The notes: generated by a model not told the origin, from the sequence alone. A DNA stretch of 64,000 nt from Natronococcus sp. A-GB7 (GCF_029688865.1 NZ_JARUKV010000005.1:1-64000); one strand, 5' to 3'; counted from the first letter of the stretch, positions 2,271 to 42,169 are shown. Program-made: numbers and translations.

Positions 2271-5200
2271 TTACCGTCCCCACTCGGCGGTCCGCTTCGG
2301 GCGCTCGGTGATCGGCTGGACGTCGATCGGTTCGTCTTTCGCCTCGAGCGCCTCGAGAGCTGCCTTCGCGCTCGCGGGCGTCGAGAAGTACGTCACTTCC
2401 TCCTCGACGGCGACCTCGAGCAGGTCGCGGTCCCGCGAGATGATCAGGTCGACCTCCCCCTTCTTGACGGCGTCGACGAGGTCGACGGCCTCGCAGAGAT
2501 CGAAGTGGTCGGTGTACCCTTCGACCAGCGCGTCGCCGGCCTCGGTGTCCGGGTCGGGGAACTTGTCGGCCGAGAGGTCGACGATCGCCGTCCCGGACTC
2601 GGGGATCGGCTTACCCGTCGCGTCCTGGGCCTTGTCGTAGGCGCGGCCGAACGAGTCGGCGCTGCCCATCACTTCGCCCGTGGACTTCATCTCCGGACCG
2701 AGGCGCGGATCCGAGCCCGGCAGGCGGTCGAACGGGAGGACGACCTCCTTGATCGAGGTCTGTTCGGGGATCTGCTCGTCGATCTCGAGCTCCGCGAGGG
2801 ACTCGCCGGACATCACTCTGGCCGCGAGCTTGGCGATCGGGACGCCAGTCGCCTTCGAGATGAAGGGGACGGTACGCGAGGAGCGGGGGTTGGCCTCGAG
2901 GACGTACACTTCGCCGTCGCGAACCGCGAGCTGGACGTTCAGCAGCCCGACCGTCTCGAGGGCCTCGGCGATATCCTCGGTGACCTCGCGGACGCGGGCC
3001 AGCGTCTCGTCGTCGAGCGAGCGCGGCGGGATCATACACGCCGAGTCCCCGGAGTGGACCCCGGCGGTCTCGACGTGTTCCATCACGCCGCCGATGAGGA
3101 CGTCCTCGCCGTCGGCAACGGCGTCGACGTCGAGCTCGATCGCGTCGGCGAGGAAGTCGTCGACGAGGATCGGTTTGTCCGGGCTCACCCGGACCGCTTC
3201 CTCGATATAGCGCTCGAGTTCTTCGTCGTCGTAGACGACCTCCATCGCGCGCCCGCCGAGCACGTAGGAGGGGCGGACGAGGACGGGGTAGCCGATCTCG
3301 TGGGCCAGCTCCATCGCCTCCGGTTTGCTGTGGGCGGCGCCGCCCTCGGGCTGGGCGATGCCTAACTCGTCCATCAGGGCGTTGAACCGGTCGCGGTCCT
3401 CGGCGAGGTCCATCGCCTCGACGCTGGTGCCCATAACCTCACAGTCGAGCCCGCGGCGGTCGATCTCGTCCTGCAGCGGGTCGCCGATGTTGACCGAGGT
3501 CTGGCCGCCGAACTGGACCATCACGCCGTCGGCGTCGGCCGCTTCGGCGACGTCGGCGACCTCCTCAGCGGTAATGGGCTCGAAGAACAGCCCGTCGGAG
3601 GTGTCGTAGTCCGTCGACACCGTCTCGGGGTTGTTGTTGACGACGTGGGCGTCGATCCCCTGCTCGCGCAGCGCCTGGACGGCGTGGACCGAACAGTAGT
3701 CGAACTCGACGCCCTGGCCGATCCGGATCGGGCCGCCGCCGACGACGATCACGCTCTCGACGTCGCGGTCGACCTCGAGCTCGCCTGCAGCGGCCGCGCC
3801 CTCGAGCGGGCCGGAGTCGAACTCGGATTTACGTGCGGAGTAGTAGTACGGCGTCTGGGCCTCAAACTCGCCGGCGCAGGTGTCGACCTGCTTGTAGGTG
3901 CGTCCCGGGACCGCCTGCTCGACGGTGTCGACGTCGACGTCGCCGCCCGCCGTCGCGGCGATCGTCGCGTTGGTGTGGCCGGCGATGGCGGCCTCGGTGA
4001 AGTCGCCCTCCTGGGCGGCGCGGGTCGAATCCGCGATGCGCTTGAACCGTTCGGTGTACCACTGGAAGATGCCCGTCAGTTCGACGACCTCGTCGACGGT
4101 GTAGCCGCGCTCGAAGGCCTCGAACATCGCGTACGGGCGGTCGGGAGAGGGGCGCTCGAGATAGTGGGACTCGAGTTCCTCGTCGGAGACGTCGGCCCAG
4201 TCGACGTCGGGCTCGTACTCGCTCGAGCGAAGCGCCTTCAGCAGCGACTCCTCGAAGGTGCGGCCGATGGCCATCGCCTCGCCCGTCGACTTCATCGCCG
4301 TCGTCAGCTCGAAGTCGACGTCGTCGAACTTGTCCTTGGGCCACCGGGGCACCTTGGTGACGACGTAGTCGATCGCGGGCTCGAACGCCGCGGTCGTCTC
4401 GCCGGTGATCTCGTTGGTGATCTCGTGGAGCCGTTTGCCCAGCGCGACCTTCGCGGTGACGCGGGCGATCGGGTACCCCGTCGCCTTCGATGCGAGCGCC
4501 GAGGAGCGAGAGACGCGGGGGTTGACCTCGACGACCCTATACTCTCCTCCTGGAGTGCCGTCGTCGCGCCAGGCGAACTGGATGTTACAGCCGCCCTGGA
4601 TGCCGAGTTCGCGGATGACGTCCAGCGCCGCGGTGCGCATCTCCTGGTGGCCCTCGTCGGGGACGATCTGGGAGGGCGTGACGACCGTCGACTCCCCGGT
4701 GTGGATCCCCATCGGGTCGATGTTCTCCATGTTGCAGATGATGATACAGGAGTCGTCGGCGTCCCGCATCACCTCGTACTCGTACTCGACCCAGCCCGCG
4801 ATCGACTCCGTGATGAGGACTTCGCTGTTGCGCGAGAGGCGCAGCCCCTTGCGAACGCGGCGAAGCAGTTCGTCGAACTCATGGACGACGCCCGACCCCG
4901 AGCCACCCAGCGTGTAGGTGGTGCGGGCGATCACCGGTAGGCCCCCGACCTCGTCGACGGCGTCCTGAACCCGTTCCTCGAGGTCGTCTTCGGTCAGCTC
5001 CGAGACCTTCTCGCCCTCGTCGAGCGCGATCGTCGTCGAGGCGGGCACGGGCTGGCCGATCTTCTCCATGCGCTGGCGGAAGAGATCGCGGTCCTCCGTC
5101 GCGTAGATGGTGTCGAGGGGGGTGCCCATGATCTCGACGTCGTGTTCCTCGAGCACGCCCTCCTCGGCCAGTTCGGCGGTGACGTTCAGCCCGGTCTGTC

Positions 5201-30894: not shown

Positions 30895-30901
30895 GTTATG
30901 G
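30895..30901 (+). promoter_or_regulatory. TATA-like box deciding the acyl-CoA synthetase start
   Basis: GTTATGG lies 24-30 bases before the ATG at 30925, so that ATG is preferred over the in-frame ATG at 30898, which overlaps the box itself. Confidence 0.4.
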
Positions 30902-30924
30902 ACGTTCCCGTGGGTGGTCCGTGT

Positions 30925-32289
30925 ATGGACACGGCACCGAACCTCGCCGACTACGAGGGGCTCTCGGAGGTCTTCGAGTGGGACAGCATCTACGCCGACG
31001 CCGACTGGGACGCGCCCGACGAGATCAACGTCGCCCACGAGGTCTGTGACCGCTACGGGACCGATCGGGGCACCGTCGCGCTGTACTTCGTCGGGAGCGA
31101 CGGCGAGCGCGAGCGGATCGCGTTCTGGGAGCTCGCGCAGTGGTCGAACGGGTTCGCGAACCTGCTCGAGGACCTCGGCGTCGAGCGCGGCGACCGCGTC
31201 TTCGGCTACATGCCCCGGCTGCCCGAGCAGTACGTCGCGATGCTCGGCTCCCTGAAGGCGGGCTGTGTCTACGGCGGGATCGACCCGCAGTTCGGTCCCG
31301 AGGGGGTCGCCTACCGGCTCGCCGACGCCGAGGCGAGCGTCGTCGTCACGACGCCCGAGAACCGAGACACCCTCGAGACCGCCCTCGAGGACGTCCCCTC
31401 CGTCGAACACGTGATCGTCGTCAGCGACGACGGCGTCGGCGTCCGCCGGGGCGACGTCAGCTACTACGAGGCGATGGACCGCGCGAGCAACGAGTACGAG
31501 ACCGTCCGAACCGAGGGCTCCGATCCCGCCCTGCTGTACTACACCAGCGGCGCCACGGGGCCCGCGAAGGGGATCGTCCACGGTCACCGCTGGGTCGTCG
31601 GTATCGCCGCGGCTCAGCTGTACGCCGCCGACCTCCAGCAACACGAGACCGACCTCTACTGGGGTACGGGCGACCGGGGGTGGCTCACGGCCCCGGTCAA
31701 CGCGCTCGGCGTCTGGTTCTGGGGTCACAGCATCCTCGCCTACGAGGGCGCGTTCGATCCCGACACCTGGACCACGTTGCTCGAGGAGTTCCCCGTCACC
31801 GTGCTCTCCGGGGTTCCCGCTCACTACCGTCGGCTGCGCGAGGAGGCCGACGCCCTCGAACCCGACGAGCTGGATCTTCACCGGGCGATGAGCACGGGCG
31901 AGCCGCTCGATTCAGAGCTGATCGAGTGGGGCGAGGAGACGCTCGGAACACCGATCGCCGACAGCTACGGCCAGGCCGAGACGGGGAACATGCTGATCAA
32001 CACCTACCCGTCGATCGAGACCAGACCGGGTAGTATGGGGAAACCGCTGCCCGGCGTCGAGGCCGCCGTGGTCGATCCCGACACCGGCGACGAGCTCGAG
32101 GCCGGCGAGACCGGCGAGATCGCCGTCGACGGCGAGTTCCCCTCCTTCTTCCTGGGGTACTGGGAGGACCCCGACCGCACCGAGGACGCGTTCGTCGAGG
32201 ACTGGTATCTGACGGGCGATCTCGGGCAGGTCGACGAGGACGGCTACTTCTGGTACCAGGGCCGGGCCGACGACGCCAGCGAGCGGTAG
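30925..32289 (+). CDS. AMP-forming acyl-CoA synthetase lacking the C-terminal domain
   Basis: 454 residues from the ATG at 30925. It is an acetyl/acyl-CoA synthetase of the ANL family. The nucleotide-binding A3 motif LYYTSGATGPAKG, the A5-like DSYGQAETG and the A7 hinge region WYLTGDLGQVDEDGYFWYQGRADD are intact. It stops right after that hinge (ASER, TAG), whereas normal enzymes (530-660 residues) continue ~110 residues with the C-terminal domain and its catalytic lysine. I could not find that domain in any frame of the following 378 bases. It is either truncated, or acts with a partner or only as an adenylate-forming enzyme. Confidence 0.85.
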   Translation: MDTAPNLADYEGLSEVFEWDSIYADADWDAPDEINVAHEVCDRYGTDRGTVALYFVGSDGERERIAFWELAQWSNGFANLLEDLGVERGDRVFGYMPRLPEQYVAMLGSLKAGCVYGGIDPQFGPEGVAYRLADAEASVVVTTPENRDTLETALEDVPSVEHVIVVSDDGVGVRRGDVSYYEAMDRASNEYETVRTEGSDPALLYYTSGATGPAKGIVHGHRWVVGIAAAQLYAADLQQHETDLYWGTGDRGWLTAPVNALGVWFWGHSILAYEGAFDPDTWTTLLEEFPVTVLSGVPAHYRRLREEADALEPDELDLHRAMSTGEPLDSELIEWGEETLGTPIADSYGQAETGNMLINTYPSIETRPGSMGKPLPGVEAAVVDPDTGDELEAGETGEIAVDGEFPSFFLGYWEDPDRTEDAFVEDWYLTGDLGQVDEDGYFWYQGRADDASER

Positions 32290-32667: not shown

Positions 32668-32913
32668 TCAGTTGGTTTCGAGAACCAGCAGGTCGTCACC
32701 GGCGTCGATCTCCTGTTCGTTTTCCGTGACGAACTCCGTGATCGTTCCGTCTGCCGGAGCCGTGATATCGTGGAAGTTCTTCATGACGCCGACCAGTCCG
32801 ACGACGTCTCCCTCGGCGACCTCGTCGCCCTCGTCGACGAAGGTCTCCTCGTCCGGGTCGGGTCGCGTATAAAAGACGCCGGGTATCGGTGACTGGATGT
32901 GTTCTGTCGTCAT
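32668..32913 (-). CDS. accB: biotin carboxyl carrier protein, small
   Basis: 81 residues, a single biotinyl/lipoyl hammerhead domain. It opens with SPIPGVFYTRPDPDEE, typical of carriers, and the attachment site is GVMKNF with lysine 45, in place of the common EAMKM. The carrier delivers carboxybiotin made by biotin carboxylase to a carboxyltransferase. It is transcribed away from the pxpB-pxpC-accC operon across a 186-base divergent promoter region, which suggests joint control. Much shorter than bacterial AccB because no N-terminal extension is present. Confidence 0.88.
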   Translation of the reverse strand: MTTEHIQSPIPGVFYTRPDPDEETFVDEGDEVAEGDVVGLVGVMKNFHDITAPADGTITEFVTENEQEIDAGDDLLVLETN

Positions 32914-32947
32914 CTACGAAATCTTACGACGCAGTACAGGCCCCGCG

Positions 32948-32955
32948 CATATAGA
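32948..32955 (-). promoter_or_regulatory. TATA-like box for the biotin carrier gene
   Basis: On the minus strand TCTATATG preceded by TTTGTCAAAG. It lies 35-42 bases before the ATG and 110 bases from the divergent pxpB box, in the AT-rich part of the shared spacer. A TTCGT/ACGAA inverted repeat at 33007-33018 between the two promoters could be an operator. Confidence 0.45.
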
Positions 32956-33006
32956 CTTTGACAAAGCTACCCCTGCGACAGTCGCCTGTAAACCCGATTG
33001 TAGCGG

Positions 33007-33018
33007 TTCGTTTACGAA
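33007..33018. promoter_or_regulatory. possible operator between the divergent promoters
   Basis: TTCGT-TT-ACGAA, a 12-base inverted repeat with a 2-base centre, lies between the accB and pxpB TATA-like boxes. A dimeric HTH regulator binding here could act on both genes. No candidate regulator is encoded next to it. Confidence 0.25.
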
Positions 33019-33062
33019 AACTGGTACTGATAGCGACAGTTCCACAGCCGTGCTCTAGTCGG

Positions 33063-33070
33063 TATCTATA
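33063..33070 (+). promoter_or_regulatory. TATA-like box for pxpB
   Basis: TATCTATA, 30-37 bases before the ATG at 33100. This fits a near-leaderless transcript and favours the ATG over an upstream GTG at 33073. Confidence 0.4.
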
Positions 33071-33099
33071 CAGTGACAACCGTTCTCTCACCCGGTAGG

Positions 33100-34002
33100 A
33101 TGAGTGACCGAACGATAGCGAGACAGGAGCTGCCGTCTCCGCGATACGAGTACGGCGGGGACGATTGGGTGTTCGTGGAACTCGACGAGGCGATGAGTTT
33201 CGACGCGAACTTCAAGGCGCAGGCGATCACACAGGAGATCCGACGGAACAGTCTCGAGGGGCTTATCGAGGTCGCACCGTCGAACGCCTCCTACCTGATC
33301 CAGTTCGATCCGAGCGTGCTTCACCCGGACGAGTTGATCGACGAGCTGAAATCGCTCGAGGACGAGACCGACGTCTCTGAGTACCAGTGGGAGGCTCGCG
33401 TGTTCGACGTTCCGGTCTTCTACGACGATCCGTGGACCCACGAGACAGTGATGGACTTTCGAGAGCGCCACCAGGATCCGGACTCGACGGACCTCGAGTA
33501 CTCCGCCGAGATTAACGGCTTCGACTCCGTCGAGGCGTTCATCGACCACCACTCCGGCGCGCCGCACATGGTGACGATGATCGGCTTCGTCCCCGGGCTC
33601 CCGTTCTGTTTTCAGATGGTTCCTCGCGACGAACAGATCGAGGTTCCGAAGTACGAACAGCCGCGGACGGCGACGCCGAGCCGAGCGATCGGATTCGGCG
33701 GCGCGTTCACCGCGATCTACCCCGTTCCCGGAGCCGGCGGCTATCAGCTCTACGGTCGAACGCCCGTCGAGGTGTTGGACGTCGATCAGGAGCTGTCGGG
33801 CTTCGAGGAGTCGATGGTGCTCCCGAACCCGGGAGACATCCTCAACTTCCGGCGGATCGACCGCGAGGAGTACGACGCGATCCGCGAGGCGGTCGAGGAC
33901 GGAACCTACCAGTACAACTACGATCGGGTCGAGTTCGAACCGCAGGCGTTCTTCGAGGATCCGCGCGGCTACAACGAGCAGTTGCTGGAGGTGCTCGACT
34001 GA
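33100..34002 (+). CDS. pxpB: 5-oxoprolinase subunit PxpB-like (carboxyltransferase domain subunit 1)
   Basis: 300 residues. PxpB/KipI proteins share the cyclophilin-like fold of the carboxyltransferase domain of urea amidolyase. Conserved markers are GAPHMVTMIGFVPGLPFCF (family: GFxPGFPY), TPSRAIGFGGAFTAIYP and GGYQLYGRTP (family: PGGWxLIGRTP), each slightly divergent. With PxpC and PxpA it is expected to form ATP-dependent 5-oxoprolinase, but the linked biotin carrier and carboxylase genes make a carboxyltransferase role also plausible. Its last base is the first base of pxpC (TGATG overlap). Confidence 0.88.
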   Translation: MSDRTIARQELPSPRYEYGGDDWVFVELDEAMSFDANFKAQAITQEIRRNSLEGLIEVAPSNASYLIQFDPSVLHPDELIDELKSLEDETDVSEYQWEARVFDVPVFYDDPWTHETVMDFRERHQDPDSTDLEYSAEINGFDSVEAFIDHHSGAPHMVTMIGFVPGLPFCFQMVPRDEQIEVPKYEQPRTATPSRAIGFGGAFTAIYPVPGAGGYQLYGRTPVEVLDVDQELSGFEESMVLPNPGDILNFRRIDREEYDAIREAVEDGTYQYNYDRVEFEPQAFFEDPRGYNEQLLEVLD

Positions 34003-34967
34003 TGCGTGTTCTGGACGGCGGACTCGTCACGACCGTACAGGATACCGGCCGCTACGGTCACTACCACATCGGCATGCCGCCCTCGGGCGCGATGGATCAG
34101 TTCGCCCACACGGTCGGCAACTGGCTCGTCGGAAACGACGACTCCGACGCGACCCTCGAGATGACGTACATGGGCGCGGACGTCGAGTTCGAAGACGACG
34201 CCGTCTTCGCCGTTACCGGTGCGGACATGGACCCCTCGCTCGAGGACGAACCGGTCCCGACCTGGACGGCCGTCCGGGCCGAGGCCGGCGACACGCTCAG
34301 TTTCGAGTTCGCGACGGAAGGTGCGCGTTCGTATCTCGCAGTCGCCGGCGGGATCGACGTCGAACCGGTGATGGAGAGTCGATCGACGTACACCCTGATC
34401 GGAATCGGCGGCCACGAGGGGCGGTCGCTGGAGGAGGGAGACGAACTGCCGATCGGCGAGGCGGCGGCGGACGCCGACGAAATGGTCGGCACCTCGATCG
34501 GCGAGGAGAGCCGACCGGATTACTCGACGACCGAGATCAACGTCGTGATGGGGCTCTGTGACTACCGGCTCACCGACGAGGGACGACGGCGGTTCCTCGA
34601 CGCCGACTGGACGGTTTCCGACGAAGCTGATCGGGTCGGTTACCGGTTCGAGGGGCCCGATATCACCGATATGTTCGAAGAGCGCGAGCAGCCGTTCGGT
34701 GCCGGACCGGACGTCACCAACGTCGTAGATCTCGGCTATCCCGTCGGCTCCATCCAGATGGCCGGACAGCCGATTATTCTGATGCGAGACGCCGTGACGG
34801 GCGGCGGATACGTGACCGTGGGGACCGTCGTGAGTCCCGAGCGCGACGCGCTCGCTCAGTGTCGAACCCACAACACCGTCGATTTCAACGCCGTCGACGT
34901 CGAGGAAGCCCTCGAGATCCGTCGCGAGCGAGACGATCTCCTCGAGGAAATTCGGGGGTCGTTGTAG
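34002..34967 (+). CDS. pxpC: 5-oxoprolinase subunit PxpC-like (carboxyltransferase domain subunit 2)
   Basis: 321 residues. It begins [20 protein letters not shown] and continues [14 protein letters not shown], the textbook start of the KipA/PxpC family (GLxTTVQDxGRxG, PxSGAMD). The C-terminal half holds [20 protein letters not shown] and [11 protein letters not shown], the conserved end of the family. It overlaps pxpB by one base and a GTG option of accC by one base, so translation is coupled. Works as a complex with PxpB; see the cluster finding for the choice between oxoprolinase and carboxyltransferase. Confidence 0.88.
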
Positions 34968-34984
34968 TGGAGACTACCCAACAG

Positions 34985-36337
34985 ATGATCGACAAAGTAC
35001 TCGTTGCGAACCGAGGCGAGATTGCAGTCCGCGTAATGCAAGCGGCGACCGAACTCGGAATCGAGACGGTCGCCGTCTATAGCGACGCCGACGAGACGGC
35101 AAAACACGTCCGCCGCGCCGACGAGGCCGCCCACGTGGGCTCCTCGGTCGCCGGCAAGAGCTACCTCGATCAGGACTCGCTCCTGGAAGCGGCGGCCGAG
35201 ACCGGCGCCGACGCGATCCACCCGGGCTACGGCTTCCTCGCCGAGAGCGAGTCGTTCGCTCGCCGCGTCGAGGACTCCGAGTTCGTCTGGGTCGGACCGC
35301 CGGCGGATGCGATGGCCGACTTCGGCGAGAAGACCAGGGCTCGAGCCATCATGGACGAGGCCGGCGTCCCGATCGTTCCCGGAACCGACGAACCGGTCGA
35401 CGACCCGGAGCGGATCAAAACGTTCGCCGACGACCACGGTTACCCGGTCGCGATCAAGGCCGACGGCGGTGGCGGCGGACGCGGCCTGAAGGTCGTTAAC
35501 GGACCCGAGGAGGTCGACGAACAGTTCCGGAACGCCAAACGCGAGGGGGAGGCGTACTTCGACAACGACGCCGTCTACGTCGAACGCTTCCTCGAGAACC
35601 CGCGTCACATCGAGGTACAGGTCGTCGGCGACACCCACGGGAACGTGCGACACCTCTACGAGCGCGACTGCTCGGTCCAGCGTCGCCAGCAGAAGCTCAT
35701 CGAGGAGACGCCCTCCCCGTCTCTGGACGAGGCGACTCGGGAGGAACTCTGCGAGGCCGCTCGAGCGGGCGTCGCCGAAGCCGGATACAGCAGCGCCGGG
35801 ACCGTGGAGTTCCTCTACGAGGACGGCGAGTTCTATTTCCTCGAGGTGAACGCCCGGATCCAGGTCGAACACACGATCACCGAGGCCGTGACTGGGATCG
35901 ACGTCGTCAAAGAGCAGTTCCGGGTCGCCGCCGGCGAGGAACTGTCGTTCGAGCAGTCCGAGGTCGAACCGCGGGGCGCCGCGATGGAGTTTCGCATCAA
36001 CGCCGAAGATCCCTTCGAGGAGTTCAATCCGACGCCCGGGACCCTCGAGACGTATCGTCCGCCGACGGGAACGGGAATCCGCGTCGACGACGGCGTCAAC
36101 GAGGGCGACAGGATCAGCCCGTTCTACGACTCCCTCGTCGGCAAATTCGTCGTCACCGCCCGGGATCGGACGGAGCTCCTCGAACGCAGCAAGCGCGCGC
36201 TCGAGGAGGCCGAGATCGAGGGGATCTCGACGACGATTCCGTTCCACCTCGCGGTGCTCGAGGACGAGGTATTCGTCGAGAGCGATCACACGACGAAGTA
36301 CCTCGATCAACAGTTCGACGGACTGGACGACGCCTGA
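34985..36337 (+). CDS. accC: biotin carboxylase subunit AccC
   Basis: 450 residues, equal to stand-alone bacterial AccC and shorter than the usual ~600-residue haloarchaeal carboxylase with a fused carrier domain. [29 protein letters not shown], the ATP-grasp glycine-rich loop [14 protein letters not shown], and [14 protein letters not shown] are all present. It carboxylates biotin on a carrier using ATP and bicarbonate. The ATG at 34985 is preferred; a GTG at 34967 overlapping the pxpC stop would add six residues (VETTQQ). It is the third gene of the pxpB-pxpC-accC operon. Confidence 0.95.
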
Positions 36338-36361
36338 TCGACGAGGTGGCGACCGATCCGA

Positions 36362-37123
36362 TCACACGAGTTCGTCGAGGCGAGCCAACTCGATCCCCGC
36401 TGCCTCGAGTCGGTCGTGGATCGTCTCGAGCAACTCGACCGAGTTCGGACCGTCACCGTGGATACAGATCGACGACGCGGGAACGTCGATCGTCGTTCCG
36501 TCGACGGCCTCGACCTCGCCACGCGTTGCGATGGAGACGACCCGGTCCGCGACCAGGTCCGGATCTTTCGGCTCGACTTCCTTCTCGACGATGAGCGTTC
36601 GATCGGGATTGTAGTCGAGGTCGACGTAGCCCTCGAAGACGGCATCTAGTTCGTCGAACTCCTGGGCGACCTCGTAGATGTTCATGTCGGTTGCCAGGTA
36701 GACGAGGCTGGGGTCGACCTCCAGGATACCCTCCATGACGGCACGACAGTGGGCGTCGCTCTCGGAGAGCATCGAGTACATCGCGCCGTGCGGTTTGACG
36801 TGCTGGACGGACGCGTTGTGGCGGCTCGCAAACGCCATCAGTGCGCCCAGCTGGTAGACGACGTAGTCGCGAACCTCGTCGGGAGTCGCGTCGATCGTCC
36901 GGCGTCCGAACCCCATCCTGTCCGGAAGGCCGGGGTGGATTCCGATCCCCACGTCGTGTTCTGCGGCCAGTTTGACGGTTTCGCGAAGGACGTGCGGATC
37001 GCCCGCGTGGTAGCCGGCGGCGATGTTCGCGGAGGTGATGTACGGCATCACCTCCTCGTCGCGGCCCATCGTCCAGTTCCCGAAGCTCTCACCCATGTCA
37101 CAGTTGATATCGATTGCAGTCAT
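36362..37123 (-). CDS. pxpA: 5-oxoprolinase subunit PxpA (LamB/YcsF family)
   Basis: 253 residues from the ATG at 37123 (MTAIDINCDMGESFG). LamB/YcsF family markers are DINCDMGESFG, SANIAAGYHAGDP, GIHPGLPDRMGFGRR and VKPHGAMY. This is the PxpA subunit of ATP-dependent 5-oxoprolinase, which opens pyroglutamate to glutamate together with PxpBC. It is convergent with accC (24 bases apart), so it is in the same locus but on another transcript. An upstream start at 37276 gives an unconvincing basic extension. Confidence 0.93.
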   Translation of the reverse strand: MTAIDINCDMGESFGNWTMGRDEEVMPYITSANIAAGYHAGDPHVLRETVKLAAEHDVGIGIHPGLPDRMGFGRRTIDATPDEVRDYVVYQLGALMAFASRHNASVQHVKPHGAMYSMLSESDAHCRAVMEGILEVDPSLVYLATDMNIYEVAQEFDELDAVFEGYVDLDYNPDRTLIVEKEVEPKDPDLVADRVVSIATRGEVEAVDGTTIDVPASSICIHGDGPNSVELLETIHDRLEAAGIELARLDELV

Positions 37124-40699: not shown

Positions 40700-42169
40700 T
40701 CAGTCCGCCTCGAGTCCGTCGAAGTAGATTGCCCGGCGCTCGTCGGGCGCGGGCGTCGTCAGCAGCGAGACGCCGACGGTGACGACGAGGCCGAGCCCCA
40801 TCCCGACGAGCCCGGCCGTCCAGCCTGCGTACGCGCTCGGAACGACGGTGGTGAAGAGACTCGAGAGGTAGAACGTCTGACTGACGAGGATCCCGGCCGT
40901 GATCCCGGCCCGGGTCGTCTTCCGCCAGTAGAGCGCCACCATCACGGGAAGGGCGAGCTGGGCGAACCCGCTGAACGCCGCGTCGCCGAGCTCGAACAGC
41001 GTCGCGGGCTGGAGGAGGCTGCCGAGGAACGCGGCCGTCGCGAAGCCGACGACGCCGACGCGGGCGAGCAGGTCCTCGCGGCGCTCGGAGAGGTCGGCCT
41101 CGACGGACGGCCGGTAGAGGTCCCGCGTGAAGTACGACGAGCCCGAGAGCAGCATCGAGTCCGAGGAGGACATCATTGCGGCCATCGCGCCGGCGATGAC
41201 CAGCGCGGCGAACCAGACGGGCGTGAACTCGGCGAGGATCACGGGAAGGACGTTCTCGCCCTCCGGAATCGCGACGTCGAGCCCGCGGGCCCACGCCCCG
41301 AGCAGGAACGAGGGAACGAACAGCAGGACACAGAGGATCGGCCAGAGGGCAAACGACCGTTTCAGGACCGTCTTCGAGCCCGCGGCGAAGAAGCGCTGGT
41401 TCACCTGCGGGAACATCGCGACGCCGAACCCGATCGTGATCGCCGTCGAGAGCATCCACTGGACGGTGTAGAAGTCGCTGCCCAGCGCGAGGTGGTGGGC
41501 CGCCTCGGCCTCGAGCGCGCTCGAGGCCGCGCCGGGACCCCCGACGGCGGCCAGCACCCAGACGAGGGCGATCCAGGTGGTGACGAGCATGAACGCCCCC
41601 TGGAGGGTGTCTGTCCAGGCGATTCCCCGAAAGCCGGCGACGACGACGTAGAGGATCATGAACGCCGTGATGAGCCCGGCGCCGACGGCGTACGGGACCG
41701 CGCCCTCGGTCAGCGCCTGTAACGCGGTGCCGGCGCCGACCTGCTGGAGCATCACGTACGGAAACAGCCAGAGCAGGCTGATGCCCGCGACGAGCCCCCT
41801 GAGTCGGCGCGAGGCGAACCGGTCGCCGAGCATCTCGCCGAGGGTGACGTACTCGTACTGTCGGCCGAGGAGCCACTGCTTGTAGCCGATCACGTACCAG
41901 AGGATCGCGAAGATGATCCCGTCCATCAGCCCCATGACGAGCACCCACTCGGGACCTTGCTGGTAGGCGACGTTCGGTCCCGCGAAGAACGTAAACGCCG
42001 ACAGCAGCGTCGCGAACGTCGTAAACAGCAGGACGATCGTCCCCACCGTCCGGCTCGCGAGGTAGAAGTCCTCGGCGGTCCGATCGGTCAGGCGGTAGGC
42101 GACCAGCCCGATCGCCAGCGCCAGCAGGAGGTAGCCGACGATGATTCCAAGCTGGATCGCGACCGTCAC
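40700..42169 (-). CDS. sodium:solute symporter family protein
   Basis: 489 residues with 13 or so hydrophobic segments. The N-terminal LIIVGYLL-type start, the family region DFYLASRTVGTIVLL, QLGIIVGY and SSSDSMLLSGSS late in the sequence fit the SSS family (SLC5-like; solutes include proline, pantothenate, acetate and sugars). The GTG start at 42169 overlaps the DUF3311 stop by four bases. In haloarchaea a DUF3311 protein next to an SSS transporter is a usual pair, so they likely act together. Solute not assignable. Confidence 0.92.
   Translation of the reverse strand: MTVAIQLGIIVGYLLLALAIGLVAYRLTDRTAEDFYLASRTVGTIVLLFTTFATLLSAFTFFAGPNVAYQQGPEWVLVMGLMDGIIFAILWYVIGYKQWLLGRQYEYVTLGEMLGDRFASRRLRGLVAGISLLWLFPYVMLQQVGAGTALQALTEGAVPYAVGAGLITAFMILYVVVAGFRGIAWTDTLQGAFMLVTTWIALVWVLAAVGGPGAASSALEAEAAHHLALGSDFYTVQWMLSTAITIGFGVAMFPQVNQRFFAAGSKTVLKRSFALWPILCVLLFVPSFLLGAWARGLDVAIPEGENVLPVILAEFTPVWFAALVIAGAMAAMMSSSDSMLLSGSSYFTRDLYRPSVEADLSERREDLLARVGVVGFATAAFLGSLLQPATLFELGDAAFSGFAQLALPVMVALYWRKTTRAGITAGILVSQTFYLSSLFTTVVPSAYAGWTAGLVGMGLGLVVTVGVSLLTTPAPDERRAIYFDGLEAD

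Follow-up and report, generated by a model that had tools for sequence, protein, structure and literature searches.

A haloarchaeal pxp-acc gene set as a putative split biotin-dependent N-carboxylase with a PxpA-type hydrolase

Five genes, accB, pxpB, pxpC, accC and pxpA, were analysed at positions 32,668–37,123 of a 64,000-nt stretch of DNA from Natronococcus sp. A-GB7 (NZ_JARUKV010000005.1; the whole stretch is called the window). They probably encode a split biotin-dependent N-carboxylase (AccC-AccB-PxpBC) and a hydrolase (PxpA), with a lactam as the most likely target; the carboxylase architecture is strongly supported and the substrate is proposed. Gene linkage, clade and catalytic signature are best read as making PxpBC the probable dedicated carboxyltransferase partner of AccC-AccB. 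An earlier note on this DNA had left two readings side by side. A biotin-dependent carboxylase with PxpBC as its carboxyltransferase is now well supported by the tree, the signature and near-universal linkage, the substrate being inferred; a control of oxoproline use fused with that of carboxylation found no positive support, as these PxpBC do not belong to the canonical clade and some genomes have them in addition to a canonical PxpB.

Family placement and catalytic signature of PxpB and PxpC

PxpB scored 80.3 bits against the NCBIfam PxpB equivalog profile TIGR00370, failing its cut-off of 145.55, and 109.5 bits against the urea carboxylase profile TIGR02712, above its score on the PxpB profile. 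PxpC reached 211.8 bits with the PxpC equivalog profile NF045499 (cut-off 500, likewise failed) and 211.5 with the urea carboxylase profile. The TIGR02712 cut-off (1303.85 bits) refers to a single polypeptide, and each of the four separate window proteins lay below it. The best PDB match of PxpB was the urea carboxylase of Kluyveromyces lactis; PxpC matched Escherichia coli YbgK best and urea carboxylase second, and its predicted fold was superposed on YbgK with Z 35.0 (291 residues aligned, root mean square deviation 1.8) and on the K. lactis urea amidolyase (KlUA) with Z 34.1 (300 aligned, 2.2). The AlphaFold model of PxpB was not used (mean predicted local distance difference test score 56.8). 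A tree of 97 concatenated PxpBC proteins was calculated by a quick search with SH-aLRT (Shimodaira–Hasegawa-like approximate likelihood ratio test) support and rooted at the midpoint, with long branches on some canonical rows; PxpBC linked to acc genes formed one group with urea carboxylase (support 99) with canonical PxpBC outside, the haloarchaeal clade joined the main bacterial clade at 100, and a second, smaller linked clade joined urea carboxylase at 98. Some genomes carried canonical PxpB alongside linked PxpB. Judged from their sequences, PxpB and PxpC of the window are not canonical 5-oxoprolinase subunits.

In the second linked PxpBC clade of Alphaproteobacteria (L230–L232), genes for an APH-family kinase and a class III aminotransferase lay between pxpC and accB, and this pair resembled the halves of the fused PRK06148 family; the substrate may differ from that of the main clade.

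The strongest result was a putative catalytic signature centred on Lys193 of PxpB. This residue, within PKYEQPRTAT, aligned with Lys1605 of KlUA, the likely general base in carboxyl transfer (PMC5770610), and Y224-Q225 lay within GGYQLYGRT. About 100 proteins were aligned (50 linked PxpB rows, 15 urea carboxylase rows and 34 rows first scored as unlinked). N148, K193, Y194, T199, T201, Y224 and Q225 were present in all 50 linked rows and in all 15 of urea carboxylase, and the rows first scored as unlinked had Arg at 193 (31/34) and Trp at 224 (30/34); since the rows share kinship, these counts are not independent. The three Lys193 exceptions had accB and accC 3–5 kb away, with a class III aminotransferase gene in the interval, and were relabelled once this wider neighbourhood had been seen. 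All remaining unlinked rows were classed from flanks of 1.5 kb, apart from two reference proteins without flanks. PxpC showed the same split, with P26, the R228–G235 block (Table 1), D243 and Y246 of the urea-carboxylase type.

Linkage of pxp and acc genes across genomes

PxpB of the window type was found in 20 of 194 haloarchaeal genomes (window included; a 21st match was weak), and 10–17 kb were inspected at each locus. Nearby genes comprised accB at 18/20, accC at 18/20 and pxpA at 17/20 loci, in several orders and orientations that point to repeated rearrangement; the divergent accB-pxpB arrangement was also seen in the closest relatives (L027–L029). The synteny check in haloarchaea that the earlier note had suggested thus showed, across the 20 genomes, that the genes stay together while their order and strand are scrambled; because the set persists despite this rearrangement, the linkage goes beyond chance. 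The two haloarchaea without adjacent accC had accC genes 69–77% identical elsewhere in the genome, in one case (G137, 77%) about 38 kb off on the same contig and in the other (69%), a draft assembly, on another contig.

The bacterial sample was obtained with an Azospirillum PxpB query and comprised 80 loci, mainly from Alphaproteobacteria (L063–L142). Here accC was adjacent in 80/80, accB in 76/80 and pxpA in 76/80 loci, and the four loci without accB all ended early at a contig end. The same gene set was found on a Rubrobacter plasmid; in the plasmid search, bacterial members of the subfamily were 43–54% identical to the window PxpB, and urea carboxylases and ordinary PxpB about 25–30%. Relatives of the Azospirillum PxpB in species genomes amounted to at least 585 candidate stretches.

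Genes of the PxpABC type together with biotin carboxylase genes, as in the window, also occur in the Staphylococcus aureus pxpB-pxpC-accB-accC-pxpA set, reported as an operon (PMC11315280), in Acinetobacter baumannii mumTLUHC, whose biotin carboxylase MumC was reported as necessary for urea use (PMC5050338), and in lactobacillus clusters, of which the one analysed differs from the window in an Arg/Trp-type PxpB and the AccB motif AMKM. In a Lactiplantibacillus plasmid (L060), accB-accC and Arg-type PxpBC were accompanied by a putative hydro-lyase and an NRAMP transporter; from this arrangement, canonical-looking PxpBC may be biotin-dependent too in some organisms.

Gene calls and partner proteins

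Coordinates are given in Table 1. The gene calls reproduced the gene order, the 1-base overlap, the 17-base gap (with ATG 34985 as start of accC) and the 24-base convergent gap of the earlier note, the Pfam domains agreed, and both PxpB motifs that it had singled out (GYQLYGRTP and GFVPGLPF) were found in the sequence. The promoters of accB and pxpB are presumed to lie in the gap between these genes. An alternative start of pxpB is the ATG at 33100; pxpB and pxpC share one base (TGATG), and accC may start at ATG 34985 (450 residues, 17-base gap) or at GTG 34970 (455 residues, 2-base gap). The pxpA gene is convergent with accC, with 24 bases between them.

Table 1. Features at and near the pxp-acc locus of the window (aa, amino acids).
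Feature	Position	Strand	Size	Basis or remark
accB, biotin carboxyl carrier protein	32668–32913	-	81 aa	PF00364 and NF005457 above cut-off
accB-pxpB intergenic region	32914–33072		159 bases	genes divergent; sequence only
pxpB-like, carboxyltransferase subdomains C and D	33073–34002	+	309 aa	PF02682
pxpC-like, carboxyltransferase subdomains A and B	34002–34967	+	321 aa	PF02626
PxpC block	R228...A234-G235...N240..D243..Y246			urea-carboxylase type; alignment
accC, stand-alone biotin carboxylase	34970 or 34985 to 36337	+		PF00289/PF02786/PF02785
pxpA-like (LamB/YcsF) hydrolase	36362–37123	-	253 aa	PF03746; above NF003814 subfamily cut-off
AMP-binding acyl-CoA synthetase	30898–32289	+	463 aa	without C-terminal domain
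sodium:solute symporter	40700–42169	-		PF00474; about 3.6 kb from pxpA

AccC retained its ATP-grasp and catalytic residues K121, K163, H213, K242, E280, E292, N294, R296 and R342 family-wide, as matched to the E. coli AccC numbering. The acceptor lysine of AccB lies in VMKNF; VMK[TSN][FY], which differs from the AMKM of fatty-acid carriers, was found in 91/92 relatives and AMKTF in the remaining one. Invariant residues of PxpA were N7, D9, E12, H39, D42, H63, H108, K110, H112, H222 and D224. By their sequences AccC, AccB and PxpA look functional, and a biotin ligase (PF03099 match at G000:C20) was found in the genome. In PDB entry 9yx5, an acyl-CoA carboxylase complex of Mycobacterium smegmatis carries the bound PxpBC homologues MSMEG_0435-0436, so that a PxpBC-type pair is able to dock on an assembly of this kind, which includes a biotin carboxylase; as residue 193 of MSMEG_0436 is Arg, the structure is a precedent for binding only.

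The acyl-CoA synthetase of Table 1 ends with GRADDASER, and a 75% identical one, adjoining the L028 cluster (about 3100–4490), has a 572-codon open frame that extends as GRADDVIISGGTRIGP; the window copy is probably a decayed gene. The symporter could be an uptake system for the cluster.

Proposed mechanism, substrate and alternatives

AccC would use ATP and bicarbonate to carboxylate the biotin on AccB, and the PxpB-PxpC carboxyltransferase, in which Lys193 of PxpB would be the general base, would pass the carboxyl group to a nitrogen in a small amide compound, for which a lactam is the most likely candidate; the four proteins would act as a complex. N-carboxylation would weaken the amide bond, PxpA would then hydrolyse it and the product carbamate would lose CO2, so that the net reaction would be an ATP-driven opening of the lactam ring to an omega-amino acid. 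This scheme has a known parallel in urea carboxylase, which N-carboxylates urea and leaves the hydrolysis of the product to a second enzyme (PMC5770610). Urea carboxylase/urea amidolyase (KlUA, PDB 3va7 and 5i8i; bacterial uca) shares with the window system the biotin carboxylase, the carrier and both carboxyltransferase parts (CT-AB and CT-CD, for subdomains A and B and C and D), the K-Y...R-T-T...GGYQ residues of CT-CD, the D243/Y246 block of CT-AB and membership of related clades, and its second step likewise hydrolyses an N-carboxylated product. It is one polypeptide, whereas the window system comprises four separate proteins; its hydrolase partner is an amidase-type allophanate hydrolase, in contrast to PxpA (LamB/YcsF) here; and KlUA has Asp1584 where the window PxpB has Phe172, with Phe in 50/50 linked rows (one insertion offsets the alignment at this point). 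Asp1584 is, we assume, a contact to urea, and the change to Phe therefore means that the substrate should differ from urea. Urea was judged unlikely on this ground and because some of the genomes also encode fused proteins of the urea carboxylase type. In guanidine carboxylase with carboxyguanidine deiminase a nitrogen compound is likewise carboxylated before hydrolysis; guanidine carboxylase is a biotin-dependent relative of urea carboxylase, of the fused type and with different hydrolases, and we know of no LamB/YcsF protein in that system.

Neighbouring genes give hints on the substrate. Class III aminotransferases were found at 14/80 bacterial and 6/19 haloarchaeal loci, roughly tenfold over a background of about 2 per Mb (expected: roughly one bacterial and under one haloarchaeal locus), in counts that take related loci as they come and are not phylogenetically independent. 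The locus of Ruegeria TM1040 has a true 4-aminobutyrate (GABA) transaminase and a succinate-semialdehyde dehydrogenase, and Mo-hydroxylase neighbours were seen in Rubrobacter, Proteobacteria and haloarchaea. As hints only, these neighbours fit a route from lactam through omega-amino acid to semialdehyde. In the bacterial loci L063–L142, PxpA fell into two subtypes, about 60–80% and about 40% identical to the Azospirillum PxpA, which pair with different transporter arrangements, a TorT-type ATP-binding cassette (ABC) system (upstream or downstream) or a polyamine-like ABC system; this suggests that the family does not share a single substrate.

The kinship within the neighbour counts weighs against the lactam-opening carboxylase, as do several further points. 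No aminotransferase or Mo-hydroxylase gene adjoins the cluster in the window itself, and the sequence does not reveal the true substrate. A literature search of incomplete coverage found no biochemical test of the Lys-type subfamily. Lactobacilli have accB-accC beside canonical-type (Arg) PxpBC; linkage by itself is therefore no proof of carboxyltransferase chemistry, and was rejected as such. The genome also has a second, orphan Carboxyl_trans gene with no biotin carboxylase nearby, which the AccC-AccB pair could feed as well.

That orphan is the ground for a very improbable alternative, in which AccC and AccB belong to an acyl-CoA carboxylase and sit next to a separate PxpABC by chance; the earlier note had named an acyl-CoA carboxyltransferase elsewhere as a possible client of AccC. 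Both Carboxyl_trans genes of the genome (PF01039) are on other contigs, neither beside accC, and the other biotin carboxylase, a fused biotin carboxylase-carrier protein, adjoins its own Carboxyl_trans gene, which weakens the case for such a client, although the orphan remains; the pxp-acc linkage, moreover, survives rearrangement and spans phyla. It is also quite unlikely that PxpABC open 5-oxoproline in the canonical way, by ATP-dependent phosphorylation, with the acc genes as unrelated or merely co-regulated neighbours. The automatic annotation reads '5-oxoprolinase subunit PxpA', PxpA exceeds its subfamily cut-off (Table 1), and Corynebacterium glutamicum requires PxpABC to use 5-oxoproline, as does Bacillus subtilis to dispose of it (PMC13274462). 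The canonical enzymes (E. coli YbgJKL, B. subtilis YcsF-KipI-KipA and that of C. glutamicum) have the same three folds, and the PxpC model resembles YbgK, but their PxpB has Arg193 and Trp224 and their PxpBC lie outside the window clade; PxpB and PxpC of the window stay below the equivalog cut-offs, group with urea carboxylase and have its catalytic residues, the near-constant bacterial accC and accB neighbours speak against chance company, and a canonical PxpB is additionally present in some genomes. The likelihood of 5-oxoproline as substrate was lowered.

A biotin carboxylase of the same architecture might instead act on a non-lactam substrate (a linear amide, ureide, guanidine or carbon acid), with PxpA as the matching second step, and this we consider unlikely. 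Non-lactam nitrogen compounds are indeed the substrates of the urea and guanidine carboxylases, which share this carboxyltransferase type, some loci are flanked by amidase and HyuAB hydantoinase/oxoprolinase genes, and the PxpA subtypes with their varied transporters suggest several substrates; PxpA is nearly always kept, however, its named homologues act on lactams, and omega-aminotransferase neighbours suit lactam products. One such homologue is the fungal LamB of Aspergillus nidulans lamA-lamB, namesake of the LamB/YcsF family to which the window PxpA belongs. A. nidulans has a urea carboxylase of 1,241 residues, with no amidase partner there (PMC3073912). The lam locus serves the use of a lactam (2-pyrrolidinone) and shares its control with the catabolism of omega-amino acids. 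That LamA is the urea carboxylase just mentioned is a guess of ours, unconfirmed.

The broader claim is a tentative one, held at somewhat under even odds: that a widespread and so far unrecognised class of split biotin enzymes opens lactams in two steps, N-carboxylation and then hydrolysis by PxpA, with 2-pyrrolidinone (to GABA) as a leading substrate, in a lactamase chemistry distinct from the phosphorylation-driven 5-oxoprolinase and parallel to urea amidolyase. Gene sets of the pxp-acc type are already annotated in public genome records, where members of the subfamily carry the label 5-oxoprolinase, allophanate hydrolase subunit or acetyl-CoA carboxylase, and the literature search, within its incomplete coverage, found no study on the Lys-type PxpBC subfamily. 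What this analysis adds is the recognition of a clade of its own, the signature of catalytic residues, the members in haloarchaea and a proposal for the mechanism. If the split N-carboxylase is real, the existing labels are wrong, which bears on lactam biodegradation and on how pxp-acc operons of other bacteria are read. The hypothesis predicts one catalytic lysine and a requirement for biotin. If true, biotin-driven N-carboxylation would join phosphorylation as a means of breaking stable amide rings, and the Aspergillus lam genes would gain a possible mechanism.

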